DNA of 64,000 nucleotides, taken from Hysterangium stoloniferum (lineage: Eukaryota; Basidiomycota; Agaricomycetes; Hysterangiales; Hysterangiaceae). Positions within the stretch are counted from its first letter, which is position 1; every line of letters starts with the position of its first letter. Below the pieces are notes generated by a model, which had not been told where the DNA came from, ran no database searches, and worked only from the letters and a program-made list of their open reading frames with translations. Both the position numbers and the translations under genes were made by a program. The DNA lies in NCBI GenBank assembly GCA_015178975.1, contig WHVD01000034.1, forward strand, positions 682,001-746,000, given 5' to 3'. Shown in pieces: positions 12,187 through 55,538 of the stretch.

Positions 12187-12196
12187 TATATAAAAG
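12187..12196 (+). promoter_or_regulatory. TATA box upstream of U1
   Basis: TATATAAAAG, conserved at the same place in U5 (24813) and U7 (30408) and as TATTTAAAAG in U3 (18935). It lies about 0.5 kb before the proposed U1 start, which implies a long leader, perhaps with leader introns. Confidence 0.6.
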
Positions 12197-12702
12197 CCCA
12201 TATGGAGATCCTGAGTTATACTTTACCTTGCAACCGTATGCCAGCGGATAGACGGTTTGCTCCGAACGGGGCTAGATGAAGAAATAAAACCTTGAGGTTA
12301 TTTCTCCATCGTTATCGAATGAGAAATAAACGAAGAAAAAATATACAAACTGTAGTCATATGTCTCTCTATACAGCAGCCTCGCATGTCCTGTTGATAAA
12401 AGGGATGAGGAATACATGAGGCTTCCTTTTGGGCTAGGAACAAGGGGAAGATTTCTCACGGCAATTCTTCTCGGGCGCCCCTTGTCCTAATCCTCGTGCC
12501 CAGCTTCTTCCGTAGTGGTTCTGTTCAACGGAATGTTGAAATAGACGACATGATTGTAGTTTTATTACAGCCGGTTCTATTCCATCGGTTGATAAATGAA
12601 TTGTTAGAAGCTTAGGGTCTAATAAATTATTGTTCATTTCTGTTTTTCGAAAAACGAGTACATAGACCAGCTCACTCTTTCTCTCCAAACAATTTCTTCC
12701 CC

Positions 12703-14446
12703 ATGACCGCAACCACCCCACCCACATCATCATTGTGAGTTGCTGATACGCCTCGATTCATGAAAGCGAGTAGTACTAATTTGTTGTCACCGCAGGCGGA
12801 GGATCGAAGCTGGTGACCCACCTAAACTAAAAAAATGGCGGTGCATGTAAGATATCTCAGTCTTTCCGTCTTCGTACTGACCATATGATGGCAATGTAGA
12901 CCGCTACCCGACATCCCCTGCGACATTGCCGCCCCCGAATGTAACTCCTTAGAGAGGTTAGTTCGTGAAGGTGACCTGACCTTGATCACACTGTTAATTA
13001 TCAAGTAGTTGTGACCATTTTTATCACCGCAATTTCTGGGAGTACATCCCGAAACTTCGAACGTCCCGTTCAATGTAAGATCACATCCTCCGAGTGTGAG
13101 TAACCATACTAAGTATATGACAACGACAATGTCTAGATCACTACCCCCACTTCCCCTGGATAGTGACGGGATTGGTCGTAAGACCCCGGCGAATGTGTAA
13201 GCATCTCACATCGAGGCGATAACAACTGACTAACTATCAAAACAATATACTCCCTTTACGGCATATTCCACATTCTTTATTTTCATCTTTTTTCATCTTT
13301 TAGTCCCTCGGTGGCTGAAAACGGGTCCCGAGTGGGCACCTCCCCAGAGGCCCAGCCGTCCCGCAATCAACAGGACAGGTATGTCATTTATTGCATGAAG
13401 TCTTGTGATACATTGAAGTATCTCCGAGTTTCTGTCTTCGTACTAACCATATGATGCAATATAGACCGGTACACGACATCCCACCGTCGTCATCAGGGTG
13501 AGTTGCTGATACGCATCAATGCATGGAAGCGAGTAGTACTAAGTTGTTGTCACCGCAGGCGGAGGATCGAACCTGGTGACCCACCAGAACTCAAGAAATG
13601 GCGGTGCATGTAAGGTATCGGGGTGTTTCTGTCTTCGTACTAACCATATGATGCAATGTAGACCGCTACCCCATATCCCCTGTGACAGTCGCACAGTCCT
13701 TGATTGCAACTGTTTGGAGAGGTTAGTTCCGGAAGGTGACCTGCTCTTGACCACACTGTTAATTATCAAGTAGCTGTGGTCATTGTCATCACCCGAATTT
13801 TTGGGATTACATCCCGAAGCTTAGAACGTCGGGTTCCATGTAAGATCAACTCTAACACTATTTGTGTTGATGCCAATTTTCTCTTTTCAATCCCCAGACC
13901 GCTACCCCCACTTCCCCTGGATAGCGAAGGGAATGGTCCGAAGACACCGGTGGATGTGTAAGCATCTCACACTAAGGCGATAACAACAGACTAACTATCA
14001 ATCAATATACTCCCTTTACCGCATATTCCACATTCTTTATTTTCATCCTTTTTCATCTTTTAGTCTCTCGGTGGCTGCAAACGGTTCCCAAGCAAATAGA
14101 TCAGAAGCCCACATTCGAAGGGTCAGGTATGTCACTTATTGCATGAAGTCTTGTGATACATTGATGATCAACAAAACTTTCTTTCTTGATACATTGACAG
14201 GTTTGCTTCAGACTCGTCTCGGGTAACCGAACAATTATGTCCACACGTGGTCAGCGGTGCATCGATGTAAGAATTAAACGAACAAATTGTTTATTGAACT
14301 ACTTATACTGATACATAAACAGAAGCGTCACCACCGACCAAAACATTACCATCCATGGTTCCGACAATGCCGGGGGATACAATAGTCACCCCCAGCATAA
14401 CTGGGACACTCGGCAAAGGACTGGCAGGCGGAGAAGCGTCCCCTAA
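12703..14446 (+). CDS. Array gene U1: 14-exon phase-2 gene, type A, duplicated module
   Basis: Predicted 287-residue protein of unknown family. Exons: 12703-12734, 12796-12846, 12900-12956, 13009-13074, 13137-13196, 13304-13378, 13465-13497, 13559-13609, 13662-13721, 13774-13839, 13898-13957, 14064-14126, 14201-14266, 14323-14446. All 13 introns are GT-AG, 52-107 bases, most with a CTAAC/CTGAC-type branch site, and all are phase 2; all internal exons are multiples of three and open. The protein begins MTATTPPTSS, then module 1 (RRIEAGDPP, IPLPDIPCD, CDHFYHRNFWEYIPKL, ISLPPLPLDSDGIG), a short junction exon, module 2 (same order, CGHCHHPNFWDYIPKL), and a tail ending TGRRRSVP. No membrane span. 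The start is uncertain, since the frame stays open a little upstream. An antisense reading is much less coherent. Confidence 0.8.
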
Positions 14447-14692
14447 TGTTTTTTCATCCTAGTTCCCCTCTCCCTCCTCCCAGTGGGCTCTCACACACAC
14501 TGCCTCCATAAATATATGAGTCTGGACACAAGTAGCTACCCATGCTTTCTGTCTTGTTTACCTCAATACAGTCATTTTTGGGGGCGCGAGATCGCAAGCT
14601 ATCATGATGATCGATGGGAGACAGCAAAAACGCAGGTCACCATGCATATTCGATTGGGGTGCGAAGCGTCACTGTCACGTCACTTATCCATA

Positions 14693-14698
14693 AATAAA
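14693..14698 (+). terminator. Poly(A) signal of U1
   Basis: AATAAA about 250 bases after the U1 stop, in a block conserved at 18159 (U2), 21224 (U3) and 32933 (U7). Confidence 0.55.
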
Positions 14699-15469
14699 GA
14701 ATCCTATGTTTTCCTGGAGCTAAGTATACATAATGAGTTATATCATATAATATAACCACGTACTCTCAGCGTTGATAAAATCGCTGAGAGAGTTTTCCTA
14801 CTAGACCGCGCGTATGTAATAGTACATTTAGGAGGATATTTACATCAAAAGAAAACATATTGTGTTATTTCGAGACATTTTGGTCGCGCGCTAAGTTCTT
14901 CTATTCCTAATTACAAGGTGTCATCCTACACCACTTTCGCACCGAAGATTCCAAATTGGGTCAGAAGGCTGACATACACCACGCAGGCACATAAGCCTCA
15001 CACATTATCAATACTTTTCCTTTCCTATGCCACCCTCCAGTCTTGCAGCTCACTGTGCCAATTTTATTTTGTTCATTAAATCTTTAAGAAGCCTGATGGT
15101 GAATATTTCTTGGACACAGACATACACATGCATGCACGGCCAAGATGAAGATTCACCAACATTTTCTCACATGCCAAGTGACCAAATCTAACACTGTCCT
15201 CAGGAAAATCCAGTGGACTGGGTTGTCCCACAAACATGAAGTAGGTCTTTGAGAAGAGACACGGCGGAGGGGTTAATGCGGAGGTAAGGGACTGTGCGGA
15301 GTTGTTGACATGTCTAATTTTTCATTCCACAGCAACAAATCGAGAGGCTTTTTTAGCAAGAGTGAGTGACGTAGCTATTACTGGTGGTCTATAGTTGCAT
15401 AATTCAAGTTTTCTGAAGTATGCATGTCTAATTAAGATAACACATTCAGGTATCACACCGGACACACAA

Positions 15470-15732
15470 CATTAAAAATAGTATGAGTTGACTTATTGTA
15501 ATACACAATCTACAAGGGGTTAATAGACTTGTAAAAACAGTACTTTTTTGTCACTCAATGTGTCAGTTAGTTAATAATGACATGAGAGGTTTGGTACTAG
15601 TTTAGGTGTACACTGGTTCTGGCATGCATTAACCTCAGAATCCATGGTCCATAATTAGCATCTTCAGATGAAAAAGTGAAGAAATGGATGAACCGGCCCT
15701 AGGTAAAGGGTGCTTTCATCACCAATTCTAAC
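15470..15732. repeat. 265-bp dispersed repeat, copy in U2 spacer
   Basis: Starts CATTAAAAATAGTATGAG and ends CACCAATTCTAA. The same insertion is at the matching site before U4 (21988-22250) but not before U6. A related copy at 39680-39947 has a clean GAGTT target duplication. It has no coding content. Confidence 0.75.
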
Positions 15733-15973
15733 ACAAGAAATCCTGCAACTGCATATCATTGCATTTCTATATGGACCATGCTTGCAGGCGGGTCAACAAC
15801 ATACCCACTGTTTCGAAGAGATTCACAATGCTCTATGATATTGTGCACTATAGCTCAAAATTTCTCCTCTCCCTCATCTGCAAGGATGTTACGATTCCAG
15901 CATATCCACTGCGGCGTGTCTATCGTCAGGGTGGGGTGGGTTGGAGTAGATAGGGACACAATCAGTTGATTAC

Positions 15974-16345
15974 TGTAAGGCTGAGGGATCAGCCTCACTC
16001 AGTCAGTAACAGACAGGACAAAAGTATCGTGTTGTGAGTGGTTTTCGCTAGCTTTACAGATGTATGGTGTATGTAATTTATAGGAGTCAGAACCATTGAA
16101 TGTTTGTGATGACAGAATTAAAAAAGGGGAAACCAGGGTTTTATAATGTGGTGGTCAAGGAGATGAGAAGGGATTCGAGATCCTGATCCGGTTCCACCAG
16201 GCATATGTATCACTAGGGCAATGGCTGTTGATCGAGCCCAATAGCGGGTTGGGACTCGGTGACACGGGCAATTGGTAAGTCGGCCAGGGGTGGCCAGTGG
16301 TCAATGATGCAGCTCTGCATGTGTGGTAAGACGGCCAGGATTATA
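15974..16345. mobile_element. Small solo LTR, 372 bp
   Basis: TGTAAGGCTGAGGG..CCAGGATTATA with target duplication ATTAC (15969-15973 and 16346-16350), in the U2 5' spacer. Confidence 0.7.
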
Positions 16346-16996
16346 ATTACGAGGCTTTGTATAGAAGAAAAGCTGCATTCCCATGGCACTGACGCCACGG
16401 AGAACATGGAGGGGGCACTTAACTATAGAGTCAAAGGCAGTGAATCGTCGAATGGAAACAAGGTGAACAGGAGCTAGTTATAAGGCCAGTAGAAGGTGGC
16501 CACAGGGTCGCCGGGGAATGCTGTCGAACTCGCTGACGATGTTGGGTGGCCAAGGCATAGTTGCGGTAGTTGACACTTTCACATTTCAAGGACAATGTTC
16601 CCACAGGGTTTCAAATTTATTATCGAATGAGAAACGGAAGAAGATATCTCACGGCAATTCTTCTAGGGCGCCACTTATCCTGATCCTCGTGCCCAGCTTC
16701 TTCTGTAGTGGTTCTGTTCAAAGGAATGTTTTGAAATAGGCGAGGTGGCTATCGGGAAAATCTGTGGTTTTATGACAGCCGGTTCTATTCCATCAGGTGA
16801 GTTAGAAGCTTAGGGTCTAATAAATTATTGGTCATTTCTGTTTGTCGAAAAACGAGTACATAGACCAGCTCACTCTTTCTCTCCAAACAGCTTCTTCCCC
16901 ATTACCGCAACCACCCCCATACCCACATCATCATTCTGAGTTGCTGATACGCCTCGATTCATGTAAGCGAGTAGTACTAACTTGTTATCACCGCAG

Positions 16997-17835
16997 ACGG
17001 AGGATCGGAGCTGGTGACCCACCCAAACTTAAAAAATGGCAGTGCATGTAAGATATCTCAGAGTTTCTGTCTTCGTACTGACCATATGATTGGAATGGAG
17101 ACCGCCACCCGACATCCCCTGCGACATACCTGCTCTCGAATGCAACTCTTTAGAGAGGTTAGTTCGTGACGGTGACCTGTCCTTGATCACACTGTTAATT
17201 TCCAAGTAGTTGTGGTCATTGTCATCACCAAAATTTCTGGGAGTACATCCCGAAACTTAGAACATCCCGTTCAATGTAAGATCAATCCTCCGAGTGTGAG
17301 TAACCATACTAAATATATGACAACGACAATGTCTAGACCACTACCCCCACTTCCCCTGGATAGTGACGGGATTGGTCGCCAGACCACGGCGAAAGTGTAA
17401 GCATCTCACATTGAGGGGAGAACAACTGACTAACTATCAAATCAACATACTACCTTTACGGCATATTCCACATTCTTTATTTTCATCTTTTTTCATCTTT
17501 TAGTCTCTCGTTGGCTGCAAACGGTTCCCAAGCGGACACCTCCCCAGAAGCCCAACCGTCCCGCAATCAACAAGCAAGGTATGTCAATTATTGCATAAAG
17601 TCTTGTGATACATTGATGATCAACAAAACTGTCTTTCTTGATACACTGACAGGTTTGCTTCAGGCTCGTCTCGGGTAACCGAACAATTATGTCCACACGT
17701 GGCCAGCGGTGCATCGATGTAAGAATTAAACGAACAAGTTGTTTATTGAACTAATGCTGATAGATAAACGGAAGCGTCACCACCGACCAAACCATTCCCT
17801 CTAGTGGTTCCGATAATGCCGGGGGGAAACAATAG
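16997..17835 (+). CDS. Array gene U2: type B copy, altered 3' end
   Basis: Exons visible at 16997-17047, 17101-17157, 17210-17275, 17337-17396, 17504-17578, 17653-17718 and a last one from about 17770. All are phase 2 and open, with a single module (no duplication): IGAGDPPKLKKWQC, IPPPDIPCDIPALECN, CGHCHHQNFWEYIPKL, IPLPPLPLDSDGIG. Oddities: the exon-1 donor is CTGAG instead of GTGAG, so exon 1 is not readable as in type A and the frame instead runs open through that intron; the last acceptor reads ACGG where others have ACAG; an extra G in a G run brings a TAG at 17833-17835, about 20 residues early. It may be a live variant or an early pseudogene. Confidence 0.6.
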
Positions 17836-18158
17836 TCACCCCCCACCCTAACTCGGACACTTGGCAACGGACTGGCAGGCGGAGAAACGTCCGCCAATGT
17901 TCTTTGATCTTAGTTCCTCCTTCCCTCCTCCCAGTGGGCTATCACGCCCCCTGCCTCCTTGAATATACGAATGTGGACACAAGTAGTTACCCATGCTTTC
18001 TGTCTTGTTTACCTCCATACAGTCATTTTTTGCGGCGCGAGATCGCAAGCTATCATGATGATTGATGGGAGACAGCAAAACGCAGAAAACGCAGGGAACC
18101 CATCACCATGCACATTCGATTGGGGTGTGAAGCATCACTGTCACGTCACTTGTCCATA

Positions 18159-18164
18159 AATAAA
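18159..18164 (+). terminator. Poly(A) signal after U2
   Basis: AATAAA in the conserved block TCCATAAATAAAGAATCC downstream of the gene. Confidence 0.5.
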
Positions 18165-18201
18165 GAATCCTATCTCTGTTTTCCAGAAGCAAAGTAACAA
18201 A

Positions 18202-18447
18202 ATGGAAGTCCCATTGAAACCAGCGAGGCTTAAGCACTCTTCGCATTACGCGGTCAAGTGCTACCGGTATTTCTTTGAAAGTATCTCATTATCGACGAAA
18301 GGAATGCTCCCATCCAAAAAATTATACACCTTTCCTGATAGATATATGCTAAATCATTGTGGAATAAATGATTATGACTGCGCTCCGATAACTTCAAATC
18401 AAAAGCGCACTTTCACTTTAGACTATCTTCTGCTGTTCTATATATAG
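18202..18447 (+). CDS. Candidate small gene after B units, copy 1
   Basis: 81-codon ORF (MEVPLKPARLKHSSHYAVKC..) in the B-to-A spacer. A second copy at 24250-24522 is 90 codons and differs by a three-base indel that keeps the frame; a third at 29389-29577 loses frame late. It is hydrophobic near the end (LLLFYI) and has no recognised family. Low-copy frame conservation could be chance in such recent duplicates. Confidence 0.3.
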   Translation: MEVPLKPARLKHSSHYAVKCYRYFFESISLSTKGMLPSKKLYTFPDRYMLNHCGINDYDCAPITSNQKRTFTLDYLLLFYI

Positions 18448-18699
18448 TTGGGCATCTGGTCGGGATTGTGATCTGTTGACCTTCTCAATGATTTGGCCTC
18501 CTCGCAAGTATATAAATTGAATCAAGGTGAGGATAGAGGGAGGAATATATGATATCTAGGTCCGTCGCTTTGCCTCAAATAATAGAAGGATGCCATGATC
18601 GGTCAAGATATTCAATTAGTAAGTGTACTAGAGAAGCACCTAGAATATCAGTATTACTCAGTGTAGTGTAAATAACATAAACAAGTGAAACAGAGCAGC

Positions 18700-18872
18700 T
18701 GACACCAGGTGAACCTGAGTGCGCAAAGGTCAGGAACGAAGCACTCTAGTTGATGGTTCTAAAGATCGTATTGTTAGAGAAAATTTTTCGGTTACTACGT
18801 TACATAAGCAGTGCAACTGCACGTTGTGACAAGAACGATCCGTAAACGGATGAAGTCCATCATATTTCGTCA
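18700..18872. mobile_element. Very small solo LTR, 173 bp
   Basis: TGACACCAGGTGAACC..ATATTTCGTCA with target duplication GCAGC (18695-18699 and 18873-18877), about 60 bp before the U3 TATA box. Related units without it (U5) show the empty site. Confidence 0.75.
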
Positions 18873-18934
18873 GCAGCGGGCTATAGCGGCACTTGGGTAC
18901 ACTGAACTAGGAAGACATGCTTCTCACTCTTAGG

Positions 18935-18944
18935 TATTTAAAAG
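18935..18944 (+). promoter_or_regulatory. TATA-like box upstream of U3
   Basis: TATTTAAAAG at the place of TATATAAAAG in the other type A units. Confidence 0.5.
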
Positions 18945-19423
18945 CCCATATGGAGACCCTGAATTGTACTTTACCTCGTTGCAAGTGTATGCCAGCGGAT
19001 AGGCGGTTTGTTCCCGAACGGGGCTAGATGAAGAAATAAAACCTTGAGGTTATTTCGCCATTGTGATCGAATGAGAAATGGACGAAGAAAAAAATTACAA
19101 ACTGTAGTCATATGTCTCTCTACAGCAGGCTCGCATGTCCTGTTGTAAAAAGGGATGAGGAATGCTTCCCTTTTTCTCACGGCAATTCTTCTCGGGCGCC
19201 CCTTGTCCTGATCCTCGTGCCCAGCTTCTTCCGTAGTGGTTCTGTTCAACGGAATGTTGAAATAGGCGACATGATTGTAGTTTTATTACAGCCGGTTCTA
19301 TTCCATCGGTTGATAAATGAATTGTTAGAAGCTTAGGGTCTAATAAATTATTGTTCATTTCTGCTTTTCGAAAAACGAGTACATAGACCAGCTCACTCTT
19401 TCTCTCCAAACAACTTCTTCCCC

Positions 19424-20970
19424 ATGACCGCAACCACCCCCCCACCCACATCATCCTTGTGAGTTGCTGATACGCCTCGATTCATGAAAGCGAGTAGTAC
19501 TAATTTGTTGTCACCGCAGGCGGAGGATCGAAGCTGGCGACCCGCCCAAACTAAAAAAATGGCGGTCCATGTAAGATATCTCAGTCTTTCCGTCTTCGTA
19601 CTGACCATATGATGGTAATGTAGACCGCTACCCGACATCTCCTGCGACATTGCCGCCCCCGAATGTAACTCCTTAGAGAGGTTAGTTCGTGAAGGTGACC
19701 TGACCTTAATCACACTGTTAATTATCAAGTAGTTGTGGCCATTGTTATCACCAAAATTTCTGGGAGTACATCCCGAAACTTCGAACGTCCCGTTCAATGT
19801 AAGATCACATCCTCCGAGTGTGAGTAACCATACTAAGTATACGACAACGACAATGTCTAGACCATTACCCCCACTTCCCCTGGATAGTGACGGGATTGGT
19901 TGCAAGACCACGGCGAATGTGTAAGCATCTCACATCGAGGCGATAACAACTGACTAACTATCAAAACAATATACTCCCTTTACGGCATATTCCACATTCT
20001 TTATTTTCATCTTTTTTCATCTTTTAGTCCCTCCGTGGCTGCAAACAATACCCAAGCGGACACCTCCCCAGAAGCCCAGCCGTCCCGCAATCAACAGAAC
20101 AGGTATGTCATTTATTGCATGAAGTCTTGTGATACATTGAAGTATCTCCGAGTTTCTGTCTTCGTACTAACCATATGATGCAATGTAGACCGCTACCCCA
20201 TATCCCCGACAGTGAGAGAGTCCTTGATTGCAACTCTTTAGAGAGGTTAGTTCCGGAAGGTGACCTGCTCTTGACCACACTGTTAATTATCAAGTAGCTG
20301 TGGTCATTGTTATCACCCGAATTTTTGGGATTACATCCCGAAGCTTAGAACGTCGGGTTCCATGTAAGATCAAATCTAACACTATTTGTGTTGATGCCAA
20401 TTTTCTCTTTTCAATCCCCAGACCGCTACCCCCACTTCCCCTGGATAGCGAAGGGAATGGTCCGAAGACACCGGTGGATGTGTAAGCATCTCACACTGAG
20501 GCGATAACAACAGACTAACTATCAATCAATATACTCCCTTTACCGCATATTCCACATTCTTTATTTTCATCCTTTTTCATCTTTTAGTCTCTCGGTGGCT
20601 GCAAAGGGTTCCCAAGCAAATAGATCAGAAGCCCACACTCGAAGGGTAAGGTATGTCACTTATTGCATGAAGTCTTGTGATACATTGATGATCAACAAAA
20701 CTTTCTTTCTTGATACATTGACAGGTTTGCTTCAGACTCGTCTCGGGTAACCGAACAATTATGTCCACACGTGGTCAGCGGTGCATCGATGTAAGAATTA
20801 AACGAACAAATTGTTTATTGAACTAATTATACTGATACATAAACAGAAGCGTCACCACCGACCAAAACATTCCCAACCATGGTTCCGATAATGCCGGGGG
20901 ATACGATAATCACCCCCAGCATAACTGGGACACTCGGCAACGGACTGGCAGGCGGAGAAGCGTCCCCTAA
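19424..20970 (+). CDS. Array gene U3: 12-exon type A copy, two exons fewer
   Basis: Predicted 259-residue protein. Exons: 19424-19458, 19520-19570, 19624-19680, 19733-19798, 19861-19920, 20028-20102, 20189-20245, 20298-20363, 20422-20481, 20588-20650, 20725-20790, 20847-20970. All 11 introns are phase 2 and every exon is open. Compared with U1 and U7 it lacks the 33-base junction exon and the second copy of the 51-base exon: its intron 6 starts like U1 intron 6 and ends like U1 intron 8, as expected from recombination between homologous intron segments. The frame is kept. Motifs: CGHCYHQNFWEYIPKL, CGHCYHPNFWDYIPKL, IPLPPLPLDS twice, C-terminal TGRRRSVP. Function unknown. Confidence 0.8.
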
Positions 20971-21223
20971 TGTTCTTTCATCCTAGTTCCCCTCTCCCTC
21001 CTCCCAGTGGGCTCTCACGCACACTGCCTCCATAAATATATGAGTCTGGACACAAGTAGCTACCCATGCTTTCTGTCTTGTTTACCTCAATACAGTCATT
21101 TTTGGGGGCGCGAGATCGCAAGCTATCATGATGATCGATGGGAGACAGGAAAAATGCAGGGAACCCATCACTATGCATGTTCGATTGGGGTGCGAAGCGT
21201 CACTGTCACGTCACTTATCCATA

Positions 21224-21229
21224 AATAAA
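21224..21229 (+). terminator. Poly(A) signal of U3
   Basis: AATAAA in the same conserved block as in U1, about 250 bases after the stop. Confidence 0.55.
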
Positions 21230-21987
21230 GAATCCTATCTTGGGCTGTTTTCCTGGAGCTAAGTATACATAATGAGTTATATCATATAATATAACCACGT
21301 ACTCTTAGCGTTAATAAAATCGCTGAGAGAGTTTTCCTATTAGACCGCGCGTATGTAATAGTACATTTAGGAGGAGATTTACATCAAAAGAAAACATATT
21401 GTGTTATTTCGAGATATTTTGTTCGCGCGCCAAGTTCTTCTATTCCTAATACAAGGTGTCATCCTACACCACTTTCGCACCGAAGATTCCAAATTGGATC
21501 AGGCAGGTACATAAGCCTCACACATCATCAATACTTTTCCTTTCCTATGCCACCCTCCAGTCTTGCAGCTCACTGTGCCGATTTTATTTTGTTCATTAGA
21601 TCTTTAATAAGCCTGATGGTGAATATTTCTTGGACACAGACATACACATGCATGCACGGCCAAGATGAAGATTCACCAACATTTTTTCACATGCCAAGTG
21701 ACAAAATCTAACACTGTCCTCAGGAAAATCCAGTGGACTGGGTTTTCCCACAAACATGAAGTAGGTCTTTGAGAAGAGACACGGCGGAGGGGTTAATGCG
21801 GAGGTAAGGGACTGTGCGGAGTTGTTGACATGTCTAATTTTTCATTCCACCGCAACAAATCGAGGCTTTTTTAGCGAGAGTGAGTGATGTAGCTATTAAT
21901 GGTGGTCTATAGTTGCATAATTCAAGTTTTCTGAAGTACACACGTCTAATTAAGATAACACATTCAGGTATCACACTGGACACACAA

Positions 21988-22250
21988 CATTAAAAATAGT
22001 ATGAGTTGACTTATTGTAATACACAATCTACAAGGGGGTAATAGACTTGTAAAAATAGTACTTGTTTGTCACTCAATGTGTCAGTTAGTTAATAATGACA
22101 TGAGAGGTTTGGTACTAGTTTAGGTGTACACTGGTTCTGGCATGCATTAACCTCAGAATCCATGGTCCACAATTAGCATCTTCAGATGAAAAAGTGAAGA
22201 AATGGATGAATCGGCCCTAGGTAAAGGGTGCTTTCATCACCAATTCTAAC
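21988..22250. repeat. 265-bp dispersed repeat, copy in U4 spacer
   Basis: Matches 15470-15732 at the same unit position with the same flanks, so it was copied along with the unit rather than inserted twice. Confidence 0.75.
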
Positions 22251-23136
22251 ACAAGAAATCCTGCAACTGCATATCATTGCATTTCTATATGGACCATGCT
22301 TGCAGGCGGGTCAACAACATACCCACTGTTTCGAAGAGATTCACAATGCTCTATGATATTGTGCACTATAGCTCGAAATTTCTCCTCTCCCTCATCTGCA
22401 AGGATGTTATTATTCCAGCATATCCGCCGCGGCGTGTCCAACGTCAGGGTGGGGTGGGTTGGAGTAGAGAGGGACACAATCGGTTGATTAAGAGGCTTTG
22501 TATAGAAGAAAAGCTGCATTCCCATGGCACTGACGCCACGGAGAACATGGAGGGGTCACTTAACGATAGAGTCAAAGGCAGTGAATCGTCCAGTGGAAAC
22601 AAGGTGAACAGGAGCTAGTGATAAGGCCCGTAGAAGGTGGCCTCAGGGTCGCCGGGGAATGCTGTCGAACTCGCTGACGATGTTGGGTGGCCAAGGCATA
22701 GTTGCGGTACTTGACACCTTCACATTTCAAGGACAAGGTTCCCACAAGGTTTCAAATTTATTATCGAATGAGAAACGGAAGAAGATATCTCACGGCAGTT
22801 CTTCTCGGGCGCCTCTTTTCCTGATCCTCGTGCCCAGCTTCTTCCGTAGGGTTCTGTTCAAAGGAATGTTGTGAAATAGGCGAGATGGCTATCGGGAAAA
22901 TCTGTGGTTTTAATGACAGCCGGTTCTATTCCATCAGGTGAGTTAGAAGATTAGGGTCTAATAAATTATTGGTCATTTCTGTTTGTCGTAAAACGAGTGC
23001 AAAGGCCAGCTACTCTTTCTCTTCAAACAACTTCTTCCCCATTACCGCAAACACCCCCATACCCACATCATCATTCTGAGTTGCTGATACGCCTCGATTC
23101 ATGTAAGCGAGTAGTACTAACTTGTTGTCACCGCAG

Positions 23137-24038
23137 ACGGAGGATCGGAGCTGGTGACCCACCCAAACTTAAAAAATGGCGGTGCATGAAAGATATCTCA
23201 GAGTTTCTGTCTTCGTACTGACCATATGATTGGAATGGAGACCGCCACCCGACATCCCCTGCGACATACCTGCTCTCGAATGCAACTCTTTAGAGAGGTT
23301 AGTTCGTGACGGTGACCTGTCCTTGATCACAATGTTAATTTTTAAGTAGTTGTGGTCATTGTCATCACCAAAATTTCTGGGAGTACATCCCGAAACTTAG
23401 AACATCCCGTTCAATGTAAGATCAATCCTCCGAGTGTGAGTAACCATACTAAATATATGACAACGACAATGTCTAGACCACTACACCCACTTCCCCTGGA
23501 TAGTGACGGGATTGGTCGCCAGACCACGGCGAATGTGTAAGCATCTCACATTGAGGCGAGAACAACTGGCTAACTATCAAATCAATATACTCCCTTTACG
23601 GCATATTCCACATTCTTTATTTTCATCTTTTTTCATCTTTTAGTCTCTCGTTGGCTGCAAACGGTTCCCAAGCGGACACCTCCCCAGAAGCCCAACCATC
23701 CCGCAATCAACAAGCAAGGTATGTCAATTATTGCATAAAGTCTTGTGATACATTGGTGATCAACAAAACTGTCTTTCTTGATACACTGACAGGTTTGCTT
23801 CAGACTCGTCTCGGGTAACCGAGCAATTATGTCCACACGTGGTCAACGGTGCATCGATGTAAGAATTAAACGAACAAATTGTTTATTGAACTACTTATGC
23901 TGATACATAAACAGAAGCGTCACCACCGACCAAAACATTCCCAACCATGGTTCCGACAATGCCGGGGGATACAATAATCACCCCCAGCATAACTGGGACA
24001 CTCGGAAACGGACTGGCAGGCGGAGAAGCGTCCCCTAA
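23137..24038 (+). pseudogene. Array gene U4: type B copy with lost splice donor
   Basis: Exons aligned to the family: 23137-23187, 23241-23297, 23350-23415, 23477-23536, 23644-23718, 23793-23858, 23915-24038, ending at the family stop TAA. The frames within exons are open and phase 2. The donor after the first of these reads GAAAG instead of GTAAG, and exon 1 has the same CTGAG donor as U2, so normal splicing is unlikely. The last exon is type A-like rather than type B-like, a sign of gene conversion or unequal exchange. Probably a young pseudogene. Confidence 0.65.
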
Positions 24039-24249
24039 TGTTCTTTCATCCTAGTCCCCCTCTCCCTCCTCCCAGTGGGCTCTCACGCACACTGCCTCCA
24101 TAAATATATGAGTCTGGACACAAGTAGCTACCCATGCTTTCTGTCTCAGGTCACCATGCATATTCGATTGGGGTGTGAAGCATCACTGTCACGTCACTTG
24201 TCCATAAATAAAGAATCCTATCTCTGTTTTCCAGAAGCAAAGTACCGAA

Positions 24250-24522
24250 ATGGAAGTCCCATTGAAACCAGCGAGGCTTAAGCACTCTTCGCATTACGCG
24301 GTCAAGTGCTGCCCGTATTTCTTTGAAAGTAATATGTCATTATCGACGAAAGGAATGCTCCCATCCAAAAAATTATACACCTTTCCTGATAGATATATGC
24401 TAAATCATTGTGGAATAAATGATTATGACTGCGCTCCGATAACTTCAAATCAAAAGCGCACTTTCACTTTAGACTATCTTCTGCTGTTCTATATATGCTT
24501 GGGCATCTGGTCGGGATTGTGA
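24250..24522 (+). CDS. Candidate small gene after B units, copy 2
   Basis: 90-codon ORF, same as 18202-18447 with an in-frame three-base insertion and an extended end (CLGIWSGL). No family recognised. Confidence 0.3.
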   Translation: MEVPLKPARLKHSSHYAVKCCPYFFESNMSLSTKGMLPSKKLYTFPDRYMLNHCGINDYDCAPITSNQKRTFTLDYLLLFYICLGIWSGL

Positions 24523-24812
24523 TCGGTTGACCTTCTCAATGATTTGGGCTCCTCGCAAGTATATAAATTGAATCAAGGTGAGGATAGAGGGAGGAATATA
24601 TGATATCTAGGTCCGTCGCTTTGCCTCAAGTAATAGAAGGATGCCATGATCGGTTAAGATATTCAATTAGTAGTGTACTAGAGAAGTACCTAGAATATCA
24701 GTATTACTCAGTGTAGTGTAATTAACATAAACAAGTGAAACGGAGCAGCGGGCTATAGACTGTTCCTTGCGAGCCGGCACTTGGTTACACAGACATGCTT
24801 CTCACTCTTAGG

Positions 24813-24822
24813 TATATAAAAG
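24813..24822 (+). promoter_or_regulatory. TATA box upstream of U5
   Basis: TATATAAAAG, conserved in type A units. Confidence 0.55.
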
Positions 24823-25427
24823 CCCATATGGAGACCCTGAGTTATACTTTACCTCGTTGCAACTGTATGCCAGCGGATAGGCGGTTTGTTCCCGAACGGG
24901 GCTAGATGAAGAAATAAAACCTTGAGGTTATTTCGCCATCGTTATCGAATGAGAACTGGACGAAGAAAAATTTACAAACTGTAGTCATATGTCTCTACAG
25001 CAGGCTCGCATGTCCTGTTGTAAAAAGGGATAAGGAATATGAGGCTTCCTTTTGGGGCTAGGAACAAAGGGAATATTTTCTCACGGCAATTTTTCTCGGG
25101 CGCCCCTTATCCTGATCCTCGTGCCCAGCTTCTTCCGTAGTGGTTCTGTTCAAAGGAATGTTGAAATAGGCGAGATGGTTGTTGTTTTATGACAGCCGGT
25201 TCTATTCGATCGGTTGATAAATGAATTGTTAGAAGCTTAGGGTCTAGTAAATTATTGATTGTTCATTTCTGTTTTTCGAAACACGAGTACATAGACCACC
25301 TCACTCTTACTCTCCAAACAACTTCTTCCCCGTGACCGCAACCACTCCCCCACCCACATCATCATTGTGAGTTGCTGATACGCCTCGATTCATGGGAGCG
25401 AGTAGTACTAAGTTGTCGTCCTCGCAG

Positions 25428-26327
25428 GCGGAGGATCGAAGCTGGTGACCCACCCAAACTAAAAAAATGGCGGTGCATGTAAGATATCCCAGTCTTTCCG
25501 TCTTCGTACTGACCATATGATGGCAATGTAGACCGCTATCCGACATCCCCTGCGACATTGCCGCCCCCGAATATAACTCCTTAGAGAGGTTAGTTCGTGA
25601 AGGTGACCTGACCTTAATCACACTGTTAATAATCAAGTAGTTGTGGCCATTGTTATCACCCCAATTTCTGGGAGTACATCCCGGAACTTCGAACGTCCCG
25701 TTCAATGTAAGATCACATCCTCCGAGTGTGAGTAACCATGGTAAGTATACGACAACGACAATGTCTAGACCACTACCCCCACTTCCCCTGGATAGTGACG
25801 GGATTGGTCGCAAGACCACGGCGAATGTGTAAGCATCTCACATCGAGGCGATAACAACTGACTAACTATCAAAACAATATACTCCCTTTACGGCATATTC
25901 CACATTCTTTATTTTCATCTTTTTTCATCTTTTAGTCTCTCGGTGGCTGCAAACGGTTCCCAAGGGGACACGTCAGCCGCCCAACCACATCACACTCGAA
26001 GGGTCAGGTATGTCACTTATTGCATGAAGTCGAGTGATACATTGATGATCAACAAAACTTTCTTTCTTGATACATTGACAGGTTTGCTTCAGACTCGTCT
26101 CGGGTAACCGAACAATTAGGTCCACACGTGGTCAACGGTGCATTGATGTAAGAATTAAACGAACACATTGTTTATTGAACTACTTATACTGATACATGAA
26201 CAGAAGCGTCACCACCGACCAAACAATTCCCATTACTGGTTCTGATAACGCCGGGGGATACAATAGTCACCCCCAGCATAACTGGGACACTCGGAAACGG
26301 ACTGGCAGGCGGAGAAGCGTCCCCTAA
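25428..26327 (+). CDS. Array gene U5: single-module type A copy with hybrid exon
   Basis: Exons 25428-25478, 25532-25588, 25641-25706, 25769-25828, 25936-26007, 26082-26147, 26204-26327; all phase 2, all open, ending at the family stop. An upstream exon ending at 25366 aligns with exon 1, but its ATG reads GTG (25332), so the true start must be elsewhere or the copy is dead. The 72-base exon at 25936 is a hybrid: it begins like the module-1 exon and ends like the module-2 exon (HTRRV), i.e. the duplicated block has collapsed to one. Two Cys found in the relatives are replaced (ECN to EYN, QLCPH to QLGPH). Confidence 0.65.
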
Positions 26328-28234
26328 TGTTTTTTCATCCTAGTTCCCCTCTTCCTCCTCCCAGTGGGCTATCACGCACACTACCTCCATAAGTATATGA
26401 GTCTGGACACAAGTAGCTACCCATGCTTTCTGTCTTGTTTACCTCAATACAGTCATTTTTTGGGGCGCGATCGCAAGCTATCATGATGATCGATGGGAGA
26501 CAGCAAAAATGCAGGGAACCCATCAACCATGCATATTCGATTGGGATGCGAAGCGTCACTGTCACGTCACTTATCCATAAATAATCCTATCTTGGGCTGT
26601 GTTCCTGGAGCTAAGTATACATAATGAGTTATATCTTGAAATAAGAGAAAACAATATAACCACGTACTCTCAGCGTTAATAAAATCGCTGAGACTTTTCC
26701 TACTAGACCGCGCGTATATAATAGTACATTTAGGAGGAGATTTACATCGAAATAAAACATATTGTGTCATTTCGACACATTGTCTCATGTTTGTTTGCGC
26801 GCCAAGTTCTTCTATTGTACCTGTCATCTTGCACTACTTTTGCACCGAAGATTCCAAATTGGATCAGAAGGCTGACATACACCATGCAGGTACATACGCC
26901 TCACATTATCAATACTTTTCCTTTGCTATGCCACTCCAGTCTTGCAGCTCACTGTTCCAATTTTATTTTGTTCGTTAGATCTTTAATAAGCCTGATAGTG
27001 AATATTTCTTGGACACAGACATGCACATGCATGCACGACCAAGACGAAGATTCACCTACGTTTTCTAACGTGCCGAGTCACACTGTCCTCAGGAAAATCC
27101 AGTGGACTGGGTTGTCCCACAAACACCAAGTGGGTCTTTGACAAGAGACACGGCGGAGGGGTTAATGCGGAGGTAAGGGACTACGGGGAGTTGTTGACAT
27201 GTCTAATTTTTCATTCCGCCGCAACAAATCGAGAGGCTTTTTTAGCGGGATTGAGTGATGTGGCTATTAATGGTGGTCTATAGTTGCATAATTCAAGTTT
27301 TCTGAAGTACACACGTCTGATTAAGATAGCACATTCAGGGATCATACGGGACACACGAAATCTTGCAACTGCATATCATTCCGTTTCTATATGGACCATG
27401 CATGCAGGCGGGTCAACAACATACCAATTGTTTCCAAGAGACTCACAATGCTCTATGATCTTGTCCACTATAGCTCGAAATTTCTCCTCTCCCTCATCTG
27501 CAAGGATGTTCCAATTCCAGCGTGTCCGCCGCGGCGTGTCCATCCTCAGGGTGGGGTGGGTTGGAGTAGGGAGGGACACAATTGGTTGATTACGAGGCTT
27601 TGTATAGAAGAGAAGCTGCGTTCCCATGGCACTGACGCCACAGAGAACATGTAGCACTTAATTATAGAGTCAAAAGCAGTGAATCGTCGAGTGGAAACAA
27701 GGTGAACAGGAGCTAGTTATAAGGTCCGTAGAAGGTGTCCTCATGGTTGCCGGGGAATGCTGTCGAACTCGCTGACGATGTTGGGTGGCCAAGGCATAGT
27801 TGCGGCAGTTGACACCTTCAGATTTCAAGGACAAGGTTCCCACAGCGTTTCAAATTTATTATCGAATGAGAAATGGAAGAAGATATCTCACGGCAATTCC
27901 TCTCGGGCGCCTCTTATCCTCATCCTCGTGCCCAGCTTCTTCTGTAGTTCTGTTCAAAGGAATGTTGAAATAGGGGAAATGGCTATCGGGAAAATCTGTG
28001 GTTTTATGACAGCCGGTTCTATTACATTGGTTGACAAATGAATTGTTAGAAGCTTAGGGTCTAATAAATTATTGTTCATTTCTGTTTGTCGAAAAACGAG
28101 TGCAAAGGCCAGCTCACTCCTTCTCTTCAAACAACTTCTTCCCATGACGCAACCACCCTCCTACCCACATCATTGTGAGTGCTGATATGGCTCGATTCAT
28201 GGAAGCGAGTAGTATTAATTTGTTGTCACCGCAG
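26328..28234 (+). other. Spacer U5-U6
   Basis: 3' part of U5 (the AATAAA of its relatives is altered here), A-to-B spacer, and the B-type 5' region with an open frame at 27757-28041 (MLSNSLTM.., APLILILVPSFF, ending LVDK). No insertion comparable to the U2/U4 265-bp repeat. Confidence 0.6.
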
Positions 28235-29060
28235 ACGGAGGGACGGAGCTGGTGACCCACCCAAACTAAAAAAATGACGGTGCATATAAGATATCTCATA
28301 GTTTCTGTCTTCGTACTGACCGTATGATGGCAATGTAGACCGCTACCCGACATCCCCTACGACATACCTGCTCTCGAATGCAACTCTTTAGAGAGGTTAG
28401 TTCGTGACGGTGACCTGTCCTTGATCACACTGTTAATTTCAAGTGGTTGTGGTCATTGTCATCGCCCTAATTTCTGGGAGTACATCCCGAAACTTAGAAC
28501 GTCCCGGGAAATGTAAGATCACATCCTCCGAGTTGAGTAACCATACTAAGTATATGACAACGACAATGTCTAGACACTACCCCCACTTCCCCTGGATAGT
28601 GACGGGATTGGTCGCAAGGCCACGGCGAATGTGTAAGCATCTCACATTGAGGCGATAACAACTGACTAACTATCAAAACAATATACTCCCTTTACGGCAT
28701 ATTCCACATTCTTTATTTTCATCTTTTTTCATCTTTTAATCTTTCCTTGGCTGCAAACGGTTCCCAAGCGGACACCTCCCCAGAAGCCCAACGGTCCCGC
28801 AATTAACAAGCAAAACATGTCATTTATTGCATGAGGTCTTGTGATACATTGATGATCAACAAAACTGTCTTTCTTGATACACTGACAGTTTTGCTTCAGA
28901 CTCGTCTCGGGTAACGGAGCAATTATGTCCACACGTGGTCAACGGTGCATCGATGTAAGAATTAAACGTCACCACCGACCAAACCTTTACCTATTCTGGT
29001 TCCGATAATGCCGGTGGATACAGTAATCCCCAGCATAACTGGGACACTTGGCAACAGACT
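28235..29060 (+). pseudogene. Array gene U6: type B pseudogene
   Basis: Aligned exon remnants begin at 28235 and 28339 and run to about 29060. There is an in-frame TGA in the first of these (AAA AAA TGA, near 28275), its donor reads ATAAG, the acceptor before the CGHCHH exon reads AAGTGG instead of AAGTAG, and the last intron has lost its 3' half. It cannot be spliced as the family is. U8 shares the first three of these defects, so U6 and U8 descend from the same defective copy. Confidence 0.75.
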
Positions 29061-29388
29061 GGCAGGCGGAGAAACGTCCGCTAATGTTCTTTGATCCTAG
29101 TTCCTCTTTCCCTCCTCCCAGTGGGGTATCACGTCCACTGCCTCCTTGAATATACGAGTGTGGACACAAGTAGTTACCCAGGGTTTCTGTCTTGTTTATC
29201 TCCATACAGTCATTTTTTGCGGTGCGAGATCGCAAGCTATCATGATGATTGATGGGAGACAGCAAAACGCAGAAAACGCAGGGAACCCATCACCATGCAC
29301 ATTCGATTGGGGTGTGAAGCATCACTGTCACGTCACTTGTCCATAAATTCAGAATCCTATCTCTGTTTTCCAGAAGCAAAGTACCGAA

Positions 29389-29577
29389 ATGGAAGTCCCA
29401 TTGAAACTAGCGAGGCATAAGCACTCTTCCCATTACGCGGTCAAGTGCTGCCCGTATTTCTTTAATATCTCATTATCAATGAAAGGAATGCTCCCATCAA
29501 AAGAATTATACACCTTTGCTGATAGATATATGCTCAATCATTGTGGAATAAATGATTATGACTGCGCTCACCGATAA
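29389..29577 (+). pseudogene. Candidate small gene after B units, copy 3 (frame lost late)
   Basis: 62 codons matching 18202-18447 and 24250-24522, then a small insertion near 29568 changes frame. Confidence 0.3.
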
Positions 29578-29848
29578 CTTCAAATCGAAAGAGCACTCTC
29601 ACTTTAGACTCTCTTCTGCTGTTCTATATATGGTTGGGAATCTGGTCGGGATTGTGATCTGTTGACCTTCTCAATGATTTGGGCCTCCTCGCAAGTATAT
29701 AAATTGAATCAAGGTGAGGATAAAGGCAAGAATATATGATATCTAGGTCCGTCGCTTTGCCTCAGGTAATAGAAGGATTGCATGATTGGTCAAGATATTC
29801 AACTTAGTAGTGTACTAGAGCACCTAGAATATCACTAATGCTGTGTTG

Positions 29849-30054
29849 TGTTGACCTTTCTGGGATTTCGGGTTAGCGACGGATTGCGAGCATTAGGGCT
29901 CGGGTCGCAGCATTGGGGATTCACCGCGTACTATGGGTTACATAAGGTCTATTTGTACTTATTTAGTCCTTATCCGTTTACAACGAGTACTGCCACCTCA
30001 CTCAGACAAACGGAAAGTTATACGGTCTAGGAACAGCACCACGAAAACTTAACA
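29849..30054. mobile_element. Small solo LTR, 206 bp
   Basis: TGTTGACCTTTCTGGG..AAAACTTAACA with target duplication TGTTG (29844-29848 and 30055-30059), in the spacer before U7. Confidence 0.7.
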
Positions 30055-30157
30055 TGTTGGTCAGTGTAGTATAAATAACATAAACAAGTGAAACGGAGGA
30101 GCGGGCTATAGACTGTTCCTTGCAAGCCGGCACTTGGAGTATACTGAACTAGGAAGA

Positions 30158-30383
30158 TGTAATCCTGGTGCCCCCAGTCTTACGCACGGACCCTGTAGTT
30201 TTACATTCTCGTTTCAATCAACACGTGATTACATAATCACCGTGTTGCACCCCGGGAAGTTTTCAGGACCTTAGATCTTACCGTACGCTGCACTTGCCTG
30301 TATCTTGTTCTGCTCTGGACAATACACCGTGGTCCTGTCAACTTGTGTGACCGCCAGTGATCCCAATTGACGACGGGATTACA
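30158..30383. mobile_element. Small solo LTR, 226 bp
   Basis: TGTAATCCTGGTGCCCC..GACGGGATTACA (8-bp inverted ends) with target duplication GAAGA (30153-30157 and 30384-30388), just before the U7 TATA box. Its reverse complement shares GGACCACGGTGTATTG and a TACGGTAAG block with 55932-56162. Confidence 0.8.
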
Positions 30384-30407
30384 GAAGACATGCTTCTCAC
30401 TCTTAGG

Positions 30408-30417
30408 TATATAAAAG
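30408..30417 (+). promoter_or_regulatory. TATA box upstream of U7
   Basis: TATATAAAAG, 25 bases downstream of a solo LTR insertion; about 0.5 kb before the proposed start. Confidence 0.55.
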
Positions 30418-30924
30418 CCCATATGGAGACCCTGAGTTATACTTTACCTCGTTGCAACTATATGCCAGCGGATAGGCGGTTTGTTCCCGAACGGGGCTAG
30501 ACGAAGAAATAAAACCTTGAGGTTATTTCTCCATCGTTATCGAATGAGGACTGGACGAAGAAAAATTTACAAACTGTGCTCATATGTCTCTTTACAGCAG
30601 GCTCGCATGTCCTGTTGTAAAAAGGGATGAGGAATATATGACGCTTCCTGTTGGGCCAGGAACAAAGGGAAGATATCTCACGGCAATTCTTCTCGGGCGC
30701 CCCTTGTCCTGATCCTCGTGCCCAGCTTCTTCCGTAGTGGTTCTGTTCAACGGAATGTTGAAATAAGCGACATGATTGTAGTTTTATTACAGCCGGTTCT
30801 ATTCCATCGGTTTATAAATTAATTGTTAGAAGCTTAGGGTCTAATAAATTATTGTTCATGTCTGTTTGTCGAAAAACGAGTACATAGACCAGCTCACTCT
30901 TTCTCTCCAAACAGCTTCTTCCCC

Positions 30925-32670
30925 ATGACCGCAACCACCCCCCCACCCACATCATCCTTGTGAGTTGCTGATAGCCTCGATTCATGGAAGCGAGTAGTAC
31001 TAAGTTCTTGTCATCGCAGGCGGAGGATCGAAGCTGGTGACCCACCTAAACTAAAAAAATGGCGGTGCATGTAAGATATCTCAGTCTTTCCGTCTTCGTA
31101 CTGACCATATGATGGTAATGTAGACCGCTACCCGACATCCCCTGCGACATTGCCGCCCCCGAATGTAACTCCTTAGAGAGGTTAGTTCGTGAAGGTGGCC
31201 TGACCTTAATCACACTGTTAATTATCAAGTAGTTGTGGCCATTGTTATCACCAAAATTTCTGGGAGTACATCCCGGAACTTCGAACGTCCCGTTCAATGT
31301 AAGATCACATTCTCCGAATGTGAGTAACCATGCTAAGTATACGACAACGACAACGTCTAGACCATTACCCCCACTTCCTCTGGATAGTGACGGGATTGGT
31401 CGCAAGACCACGGCGAATGTGTAAGCATCTCACATCGAGGCGATAACAACTGACTAACTATCAAAACAATATACTCCCTTTACGGCATATTCCACATTCT
31501 TTATTCTCATCTTTTTTCATCTTTTAGTCCCTCCGTGGCTGCAAACAATACCCAAGCGGACACCTCCCCAGAAGCCCAGCCGTCCCGCAATCAACAGGAC
31601 AGGTATGTCATTTATTGCATGAAGTCTTGTGATACATTGAAGTATCTCCGAGTTTCTGTCTTCGTACTAACCATATGATGCAATATAGATCGATACACGA
31701 CATCCCACCGTCGTCATCAGGGTGAGTTGCTGATACGCCTCAATGCATGGAAGCGAGTAGTACTAAGTTGTTGTCACCGCAGGCGGAGGATCGAACCTGG
31801 TGACCCACCAGAACTCAAGAAATGGCGGTGCATGTAAGGTATCGGGGTGTTTCTGTCTTCGTACTAACCATATGATGCAATGTAGACCGCTACCCCATAT
31901 CCCCTGTGACAGTCGCACAGTCCTTGATTGCAACTGTTTGGAGAGGTTAGTTCCGGAAGGTGACCTGCTCTTGACCACACTGTTAATTATCAAGTAGCTG
32001 TGGTCATTGTCATCACCCGAATTTTTGGGATTACGTCCCGAAGCTTAGAACGTCGGGTTCCATGTAAGATCAAATGTGACAGTATTTGTGTTGATGCCAA
32101 TTTTCTCTTTTCAATCCCCAGACCGCTACCCCCACTTCCCCTGGATAGCGACGAGAATGGTCCGAAGACACCGGTGGAAGTGTAAGCATGTCACACTGAG
32201 GCGATAACAACAGACTAACTATCAATCAATATACTCCCTTTACCGCATATTCCACATTCTTTATTTTCATCCTTTTTCATCTTTTAGTCTCTCGGTGGCT
32301 GCAAACGGTTCCCAAGCAAATAGATCAGAAGCCCACACTCGAAGGGTCAGGTATGTCACTTATTGCATGAAGTCTTGTGATACATTGATGATCAACAAAA
32401 CTTTCTTTCTTGATACATTGACAGGTTTGCTTCAGACTCGTCTCGGGTAACCGAACAATTATGTCCACACGTGGTCAACGGTGCATCGATGTAAGAATTA
32501 AACGAACAAATTGTTTATTGAACTACTTATACTGATACATGAATAGAAGCGTCACCACCGACCAAACAATTCCCAATATTGGTTCCGATAACGCCGGGGG
32601 ATACAATAGTCACCCTCAGCATAACTGGGACACTCGGCAACGGACTGGCAGGCGGAGAAGCGTCCCCTAA
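30925..32670 (+). CDS. Array gene U7: 14-exon type A copy, duplicated module
   Basis: Predicted 288-residue protein, the best-preserved copy with U1. Exons: 30925-30959, 31020-31070, 31124-31180, 31233-31298, 31361-31420, 31528-31602, 31689-31721, 31783-31833, 31886-31945, 31998-32063, 32122-32181, 32288-32350, 32425-32490, 32547-32670. Every intron is GT-AG and phase 2; I read every codon open to the TAA. Module 1: RRIEAGDPPKLKKWRC, IPLPDIPCDIAAPECN, CGHCYHQNFWEYIPEL, IPLPPLPLDSDGIG. Junction exon: SIHDIPPSSSG. Module 2: RRIEPGDPPELKKWRC, IPLPHIPCDSRTVLDCN, CGHCHHPNFWDYVPKL, IPLPPLPLDSDENG. Tail: QLCPHVVNGAS, then TGRRRSVP. No recognised domain; metal binding by the Cys/His motif is only a guess. 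Confidence 0.82.
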
Positions 32671-52262: not shown

Positions 52263-53051
52263 CCTCTCTATGATCTTATGCCATATAGCTCGAAATTTCT
52301 CCTCTCCCTCATCTGCAAGGATGTTCCAATTCCAGCGTGTCCGCCGTGGCGTGTCCATCATCAGGGTGGGGTGGGTTGGAGTAGAGAGGGACACAATTGG
52401 TTGATTACGAGGCTTTGTATAGAAGACAAGCTGCGTTCCCATGGCACTGACGCCGAGAACATGGAGCACTTAACTATAGAGTCAAAGGCAGTGAATCGTC
52501 GAGTGGAAACAAGGTGAACAGGAGCTAGTTATAAGGTCCATAGAAGGTGTCCTCATGGTCGCCGGGGAATGCTGTCGAACTCGCTGACGATGTTGGGTGG
52601 CCAAGGCATAGTTGCGGCAGTTGACACCTTCAGATTTCAAGGACAAGGTTCCCACAGTGTTTCAAATTTATTGTCGAATGAGAAATGGAAGAAGATATCT
52701 CATGGCAATTCCTCTCAGGCGCTTCTTATCCTCATCCTCGTGCCCAGCTTCTTCTGTAGTTCTGTTCAAAGGAATGTTGAAATAGGGGAAATGGCTATCG
52801 GGAAAATCTGTGGTTTTATGACAGCTGGTTCTATTCCATTGGTTGACAAATGAATTGTTAGAAGCTTAGGGTCTAATAAATTATTGTTCATTTCTGTTTG
52901 TCGAAAAGTGAGTGCAAAGGCCAGCTCACTCCTTCTCTTCAAACATCTTCTTCCCATGACCGCAACCCCCCCCCCTACCCACATCATCATTGTGAGTGCT
53001 GATATGGCTCGATTCATGGAAGCGAGGAGTACTAATTTGTTGTCACCGCAG
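52263..53051 (+). other. 5' region of U8 (type B)
   Basis: Very similar to the U6 5' region (27450-28230), including the open frame MLSNSLTM.. at 52569-52853. The start of the unit is cut by the inverted spacer arm. Confidence 0.7.
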
Positions 53052-55435: not shown

Positions 55436-55538
55436 AATCCCCAGACCGCTACCCCCACTTCCCCTGAACAGCGACGGGAATGGTCCGAAGACCCCAGTGG
55501 ATGTGTAAGCATATCACATTGAGGCGATAACAACAGGC

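Follow-up and report, generated by a model that had tools for sequence, protein, structure and literature searches.

Genes with many similar-sized exons that all share one phase are rare in most genomes, and in the bicycle genes of aphids almost all internal exons are phase 2 (PMC9168663; here and below, published systems are described from excerpts of the papers cited). Arrays of phase-2 90-bp exons have arisen by clonal expansion in a Tetrahymena LRR family (PMC6564038), the coding regions of schistosome micro-exon genes (MEGs) consist largely of short symmetric exons (PMC5825161), and codon-sized mini-exons are found in the NACHT-ANK (nank) genes of Tuber melanosporum (PMC4986451, PMC9815663). 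Here we analyze a family of mini-exon genes in Hysterangium stoloniferum, which is placed in the Hysterangiales (Agaricomycetes); eight copies lie in one stretch of 64,000 nucleotides, called the window below (bases 682001–746000 of contig C268, in an assembly of 111 Mb and 554 contigs). Three of them (U1, U3, and U7) look intact, and U2, U4, U5, U6, and U8 are broken. The species is truffle-like and ectomycorrhizal.

Gene models were made with a splice-chain finder that has no phase preference. Initial hand-set scoring gave a U1 model of 276 residues in which phases 2 and 1 were mixed; after revision on U1 the scoring gave an all-phase-2 model, and it was applied alike to the other copies, where nothing but the minimum exon length changed. 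U1, U3, and U7 are described here from DNA sequence and gene models. The finder recovered exactly the frames given in a preliminary description of the window (287, 259, and 288 residues for U1, U3, and U7), together with their 13, 11, and 13 introns. As that description had also claimed, all 37 introns of the three genes are phase 2 and 52–107 bases long, and each of the 34 internal exons has a length divisible by three (33, 51, 57, 60, 63, 66, or 75 bases). Its central observation is confirmed: this is a real family of symmetric phase-2 mini-exon genes, and such exons are almost certainly the family architecture. The intact genes and the exons of U1 are as follows, in window coordinates.

12703..14446, + strand: U1, two-module gene with 14 exons and 13 phase-2 introns, 287 residues (finder; GenBank P0001)
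12703..12734, + strand: U1 exon 1, with the start codon
12796..12846, + strand: U1 exon 2, 51 nucleotides
12900..12956, + strand: U1 exon 3, 57 nucleotides
13009..13074, + strand: U1 exon 4, 66 nucleotides
13137..13196, + strand: U1 exon 5, 60 nucleotides
13304..13378, + strand: U1 exon 6, 75 nucleotides
13465..13497, + strand: U1 exon 7, 33 nucleotides
13559..13609, + strand: U1 exon 8, 51 nucleotides, copy of exon 2
13662..13721, + strand: U1 exon 9, 60 nucleotides
13774..13839, + strand: U1 exon 10, 66 nucleotides, copy of exon 4
13898..13957, + strand: U1 exon 11, 60 nucleotides, copy of exon 5
14064..14126, + strand: U1 exon 12, 63 nucleotides
14201..14266, + strand: U1 exon 13, 66 nucleotides
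14323..14446, + strand: U1 exon 14, with the stop codon
19424..20970, + strand: U3, intact gene without exons 7–8 of U1, 12 exons and 11 phase-2 introns, 259 residues (GenBank P0002)
30925..32670, + strand: U7, two-module gene with 14 exons and 13 phase-2 introns, 288 residues (finder)

All junctions of U1, U3, and U7 have plausible splice-site scores (6.2–12.2 bits). The genes had been called invisible, which holds for scans of open reading frames (ORFs) but not for GenBank, where they are already annotated as hypothetical proteins. P0001 (283 residues) equals the U1 model except in exons 2 and 8, where its donor is 6 bases farther upstream. At window 12841–12850 and at the matching site of module 2 there are two phase-2 donors, separated by 6 bases, and P0001 implies the less standard upstream donor (GTGCAT) in both modules. 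P0002 (237 residues) is the U3 model minus exon 8; automatic models of such genes can disagree in skipped exons and donor choice. A paper on mycorrhizal fungi mentions the genome one time and states that annotation drew on the transcriptome “when available” (PMC7550596).

The one-phase pattern had been called unlikely by chance, and none of 300 dinucleotide shuffles of U1 reached seven or more introns (the maximum was five); the argument needs correction in that the exons are homologous copies and their phases are not independent draws. A small control, an MFS-like ORF of the window, gave two introns in phases 1 and 2, which as a single gene is no estimate of background.

The shared phase has a simple explanation. 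We compared 22 introns, the 13 of U1 and nine of the 16 in C93b, a gene of a second subfamily on another contig, using 60 shuffles per pair. Homologous classes are formed by introns 2, 6, 8, and II_i1, by 5, 11, and II_i14, and by 10, II_i2, and II_i13 (z 8–22); further classes are 1 with 7, 3 with 9, and 13 with II_i16 (z at least 8). These classes cross the subfamilies and recur inside one gene, just as U1 exons 2, 4, and 5 recur as exons 8, 10, and 11. Exons and their flanking introns have very probably been copied from one another, to judge by these similarities, and the phase is single because phase-2 exons were copied together with their introns. On this evidence the shared phase is inherited, with no need for many independent coincidences.

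U3 appears to catch one such event at a single intron:

20103..20188, + strand: U3 intron 6, which resembles an intron 6 that ends as intron 8 does, the joint where exons 7–8 are absent

Of its 86 bases, 85 equal U1 intron 6, and the remaining one is the base that intron 8 has there; the 3′ halves are common to introns 6 and 8. The missing exons total 84 bases (28 codons). U3 looks like the outcome of a loss or gain of two exons that lie between similar introns; gain of exons 7–8 in U1 and U7 instead of loss in U3 is possible. Other whole-exon differences also leave the frame intact: subfamily II copies have two to five exon pairs, and those of subfamily I consist of one module or two. Among the cleaner copies, exon lengths shift only by multiples of three (32/35, 57/60, 51/54, 15/30, 96/99, and 60/69 bases).

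Contigs C93, C520, and C30 carry family DNA outside the window, and C118 and C67 hold fragments of it. Six copies on the first three contigs make up subfamily II, each with two to five tandem pairs of a 54- and a 30-base exon, the pairs mostly 193 bases apart by their coordinates. The C93b model is identical to GenBank P0004 at 292 of 292 residues. For both C93b and C520b, phase 2 holds at 15 of 16 introns, and the length of 14 of 15 internal exons is divisible by three; the exception, a 67-base exon, shifts the last exon out of the frame that it has in subfamily I. All 12 introns of C520a are phase 2, and its last exons are unlike those of GenBank P0007. In total, this one fungus has about fourteen family copies and additional fragments.

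Beside the C93 genes, at L009 5028–5360 and 9580–9760, lie relics that belong to another type within the family, with intron-1-like sequence and an SLPRIPSD exon (by eye); comparable relics are on C181 (L019) and C486 (L020). Two intron probes gave 27 and 30 matches, all at family loci or relics (C93, C181, C486), and reversed controls gave none. The idea that further intact members are hidden by divergent exons has little support, the probes having added only the C181 and C486 relics.

A coding signal is visible between the older copies. C93b and C520b differ at 11, 12, and 23 first, second, and third codon positions (omega 0.46; third-position excess p 0.014), counting repeated exons once, two exons in part, and leaving out the first short exon, which differs in length. 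The wrong frames give omega 1.26 and 2.40, which restates the third-position excess and is no separate test; without single counting of the repeats the positions are 13, 21, and 45 and omega is 0.32. Modules 1 and 2 of U1, compared over three equal-length exon pairs, give omega 0.25 and differences of 7, 6, and 15 (p 0.022).

The protein had been said to match nothing recognizable, and this stands: there is no Pfam family above threshold among seven sequences, no PDB sequence match, and no match outside Hysterangium. Five sequences gave only weak Pfam matches (DUF6296, PHD_NSD, and zf_RING_Vps8), and P0001 and P0004 gave none. Protein homologue searches at E up to 10 returned 3, 10, and 6 matches, all in Hysterangium; in the search with 10 matches, scoring was limited to the 8000 candidates that had most words in common with the query. 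So far the family has been found only in H. stoloniferum. Proline makes up 12–20% of eight of the 10 annotated proteins (about 8% in P0003 and P0008), and the motifs [I/R]PLPPLP, IPLPPIYEDES, and PPPPMPFRY are repeated alongside a short Cys/His segment. The proposed link to secreted proteins fares less well, since nine of the 10 annotated proteins lack a strongly hydrophobic start (top 12-residue stretch 0.46–1.03, by hydropathy and not by a signal-peptide program). The tenth, P0003, reaches 1.75 near its start, and that N-terminus lies outside the family exons.

We read these data as probably describing a lineage-specific, proline-rich family of probably disordered motif-repeat proteins that varies by in-frame gain and loss of exons. 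Exon–intron units were very probably duplicated inside genes, leaving homologous mini-exons nearly all in phase 2, and the copies now vary by entire exons with the frame kept, the U3 joint being consistent with recombination between like introns. The products would be proline-rich, largely disordered chains that repeat short motifs, a role to which we give somewhat less than an even chance. Their most likely function, and the weakest step of the proposal, would be as multivalent ligands that bind SH3- or WW-type peptide-binding domains, either within the fungus or, following unconventional release, on its surface; exon number would then set the number of binding sites.

Upstream of U1 lies a conserved leader:

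12150..12682, + strand: U1 upstream promoter/leader, 69–70% identical to the leaders of six subfamily II copies (C93, C520, and C30)

It is about 530 bases long and carries a TATA box, TATATAAAA, at about 12187–12195 (by eye); its long matches are confined to family loci. For that reason we rejected the possibility that the leader is the long terminal repeat of a transposon; its first 100 or so bases also match C67 and C334. Downstream of U1, window 14720–15200 matches a dispersed repeat present on many contigs at roughly 70–85% identity.

The five broken copies of the window are these:

16901..17897, + strand: U2, one-module copy with ATT at the start site, donor 1 and the last acceptor lost
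23041..24038, + strand: U4, one-module copy with ATT in place of a start codon and without donors 1 and 2 (GenBank P0008)
25332..26327, + strand: U5, one-module copy with GTG at the start site, exons 2–6 and 13 individually open
28144..29084, + strand: U6, one-module copy with exonic stops and splice sites lost
52956..56480, + strand: U8, two-module copy with splice sites lost and sequence inserted

One module means exons 1–6 plus 13–14, as in U2, U4, U5, and U6; U1, U7, and U8 have two modules, and U3 has two minus exons 7–8. GenBank P0003 spans U2 with a different N-terminus, derived from sequence upstream of U2 and not from family exons. In U8 the gap between exons 10 and 11 is 1,350 bases, vs 58 in U1. 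From U5, U6, and U8 the finder drew only short chains of 70, 21, and 18 residues.

Elsewhere in the window are copia-type retrotransposon pieces at 6676–9888 (− strand) and 927–1895 (+ strand), comprising RVT_2, integrase core, gag-pre-integrase, and a separate copia gag ORF; a DDE_3 transposase match in an ORF at 3718–4257, and an ORF with the internal repeat IVPRRFPVTIPNTHLLPG at 49213–49776, which has no Pfam match at E 0.01.

Several observations weigh against our reading of the family. Five of the eight window copies have lost the start codon, splice sites, or open frame. Omega is near neutral in the youngest copies (0.70 for U1–U3, 0.76 for U1–U7, and 0.64 for U3–U7, over equal-length exons), where the third-position p values are 0.66, 0.56, and 0.12, and between the subfamilies exons show no clear excess of conservation over introns. 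In U1 vs C93b, intron 10 is identical at 0.79, intron 13 at 0.82, and introns 9, 11, and 12 at 0.53–0.63; exons 10, 12, and 13 are at 0.54–0.68, exon 11 at 0.77, and exon 14 at 0.80. By these comparisons the exons are coding yet weakly constrained, evolving about as fast as introns. The direction of the U3 event hangs on one diagnostic base. The last exons of subfamily II run in another frame than those of subfamily I, and exons that are not multiples of three exist: the 67-base exon, a 73-base exon in C30, and poly-C exons of 31, 32, 34, and 35 bases in C93a, C93c, and C30. The finder gave mixed phases for these last three copies, which as assembled do not keep to one phase and exons in multiples of three; homopolymer assembly errors or decay would each account for their irregularity. 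Here we note that poly-C runs of differing length shift the 30-base exon off a multiple of three (L009 2485–2519, L010, and L013). As to the products, the low AlphaFold mean pLDDT values (41.1 for P0004 and 36.5 for P0001, the models being too poor for a fold search) favor disorder but come from 6-row alignments and do not prove it. Patterns of the [RK]xxPxxP type bind SH3 domains, and the ligand role leans on such consensus patterns; the pattern occurs zero to five times per protein and is absent from three of 10.

Among other explanations, the one that survives best is that the genes encode secreted effectors with a bicycle- or MEG-like role, which an ectomycorrhizal fungus diversifies for its plant host. 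The symbiotic habit of the species and the appearance of its genome among those of mycorrhizal fungi suit it, and fast protein change, mini-exons, and lineage restriction also mark bicycle genes. Transcription may begin about 500 bases 5′ of the ATG, at the TATA box, leaving space for an upstream exon, but no such exon was seen, though no systematic search for one was made. The first exon, with its ATG, is similar between the two subfamilies and encodes hydrophilic sequence, and the one hydrophobic start, that of P0003, is foreign to the family exons while the other nine proteins have none that is strongly hydrophobic. We consider an effector role unlikely.

The copies might instead be a tandem repeat in decay that may not code for protein, made of former genes that were duplicated together with a repeat-rich region and retain their open frames mostly by descent. 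The five broken copies, the omega of 0.64–0.76 among young copies, and the similar preservation of exons and introns between subfamilies are all expected of it, and copia-type and DDE_3 matches share the window, with inserted sequence in U8. Against this, 10–15 internal mini-exons stay open in five copies of two subfamilies, with 62 of 64 in multiples of three; older copies have a third-position excess; and leader and TATA box are kept between the subfamilies. This makes pure decay quite improbable in our judgment.

A splicing-driven source of variation like that of schistosome MEGs, with in-frame isoforms made by skipping mini-exons, seems to us equally doubtful. Every internal exon of U1, U3, and U7 could be skipped in frame, and the GenBank models do skip U3 exon 8 and the 35-base C93a exon and differ in donors by 6 bases; these are differences between gene models, however, and the plausible scores of all junctions in U1, U3, and U7 give no sign of weak, skippable exons. 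Finally, an artifact of an over-permissive splice search linking open pieces, to which the mixed-phase U1 model of the initial scoring might point, is very improbable given that no shuffle reached seven introns, that the splice borders recur as homologous introns on other contigs, and that the GenBank models, from another pipeline, agree closely.

Returning to a motif-repeat family that varies by exon gain and loss, same-phase mini-exon genes are known in unrelated lineages, and a compact fungal case with sister copies suggests how the architecture grows: the unit of growth may be exon plus intron, and like introns look like sites of exchange. The family is a testable system for the origin of symmetric exon arrays and for their use in variable symbiosis proteins. 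One may go further and suppose a dedicated diversification system, in which phase-2 mini-exons with homologous introns serve as exchangeable cassettes and are reshuffled by recombination, perhaps also by splicing. The multivalent motif proteins so varied would work at the interface of root symbiosis or of self and non-self, and a fungus would have arrived independently at the bicycle/MEG design, without classical secretion; we regard this as speculative and rather unlikely.

The analogy to bicycle and schistosome genes drawn in the preliminary description holds for architecture, which fits that of bicycle genes, but not for the link to secretion. Bicycle genes are alike in their small phase-2 internal exons and in being a fast-changing, lineage-specific family; they differ in being secreted putative effectors of insects, whereas the Hysterangium proteins have no signal-peptide-like start by hydropathy. 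Bicycle proteins carry an N-terminal signal peptide and are named for Cys-Tyr-Cys motifs. Copying of exons with introns is clear in the Hysterangium family, and the proteins of the two were compared only through general protein searches. The Tetrahymena LRR genes are the closest published phase-2 array that we found, sharing tandem phase-2 exons that arose by exon duplication; they are thousands of ciliate genes with uniform 90-bp LRR exons, whereas Hysterangium exons are 15–99 bases long and proline-rich, with no LRR match in Pfam. Schistosome MEGs share short symmetric exons and the possibility of in-frame skipping, but their exons are 6–36 bp and their products secreted or membrane-anchored (PMC5825161), as against Hysterangium exons of mostly 51–75 bases in subfamily I and 30 plus 54 in the arrays of subfamily II.

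It had also been stated that no fungal family of this kind is known. The literature matches listed include no earlier report of this Hysterangium family and no fungal all-phase-2 family, but the Tuber nank genes, likewise from a truffle fungus, have mini-exons in multiples of a codon that are thought to diversify proteins; there the mini-exons are joined to an NLR, and NACHT and ankyrin domains were unmatched in the Hysterangium sequences scanned. SP7-like effectors of arbuscular mycorrhizal fungi have a signal peptide and hydrophilic repeats (PMC11333574). They too are a small family of hydrophilic repeat proteins from symbiotic fungi in which repeat number varies; a conserved intron precedes their first repeat, whereas the Hysterangium family has introns in every module and repeats without a signal-peptide-like start. 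Overall, the architecture of the Hysterangium family resembles that of these known systems, some more closely than others, and it shares no tested domain with them.

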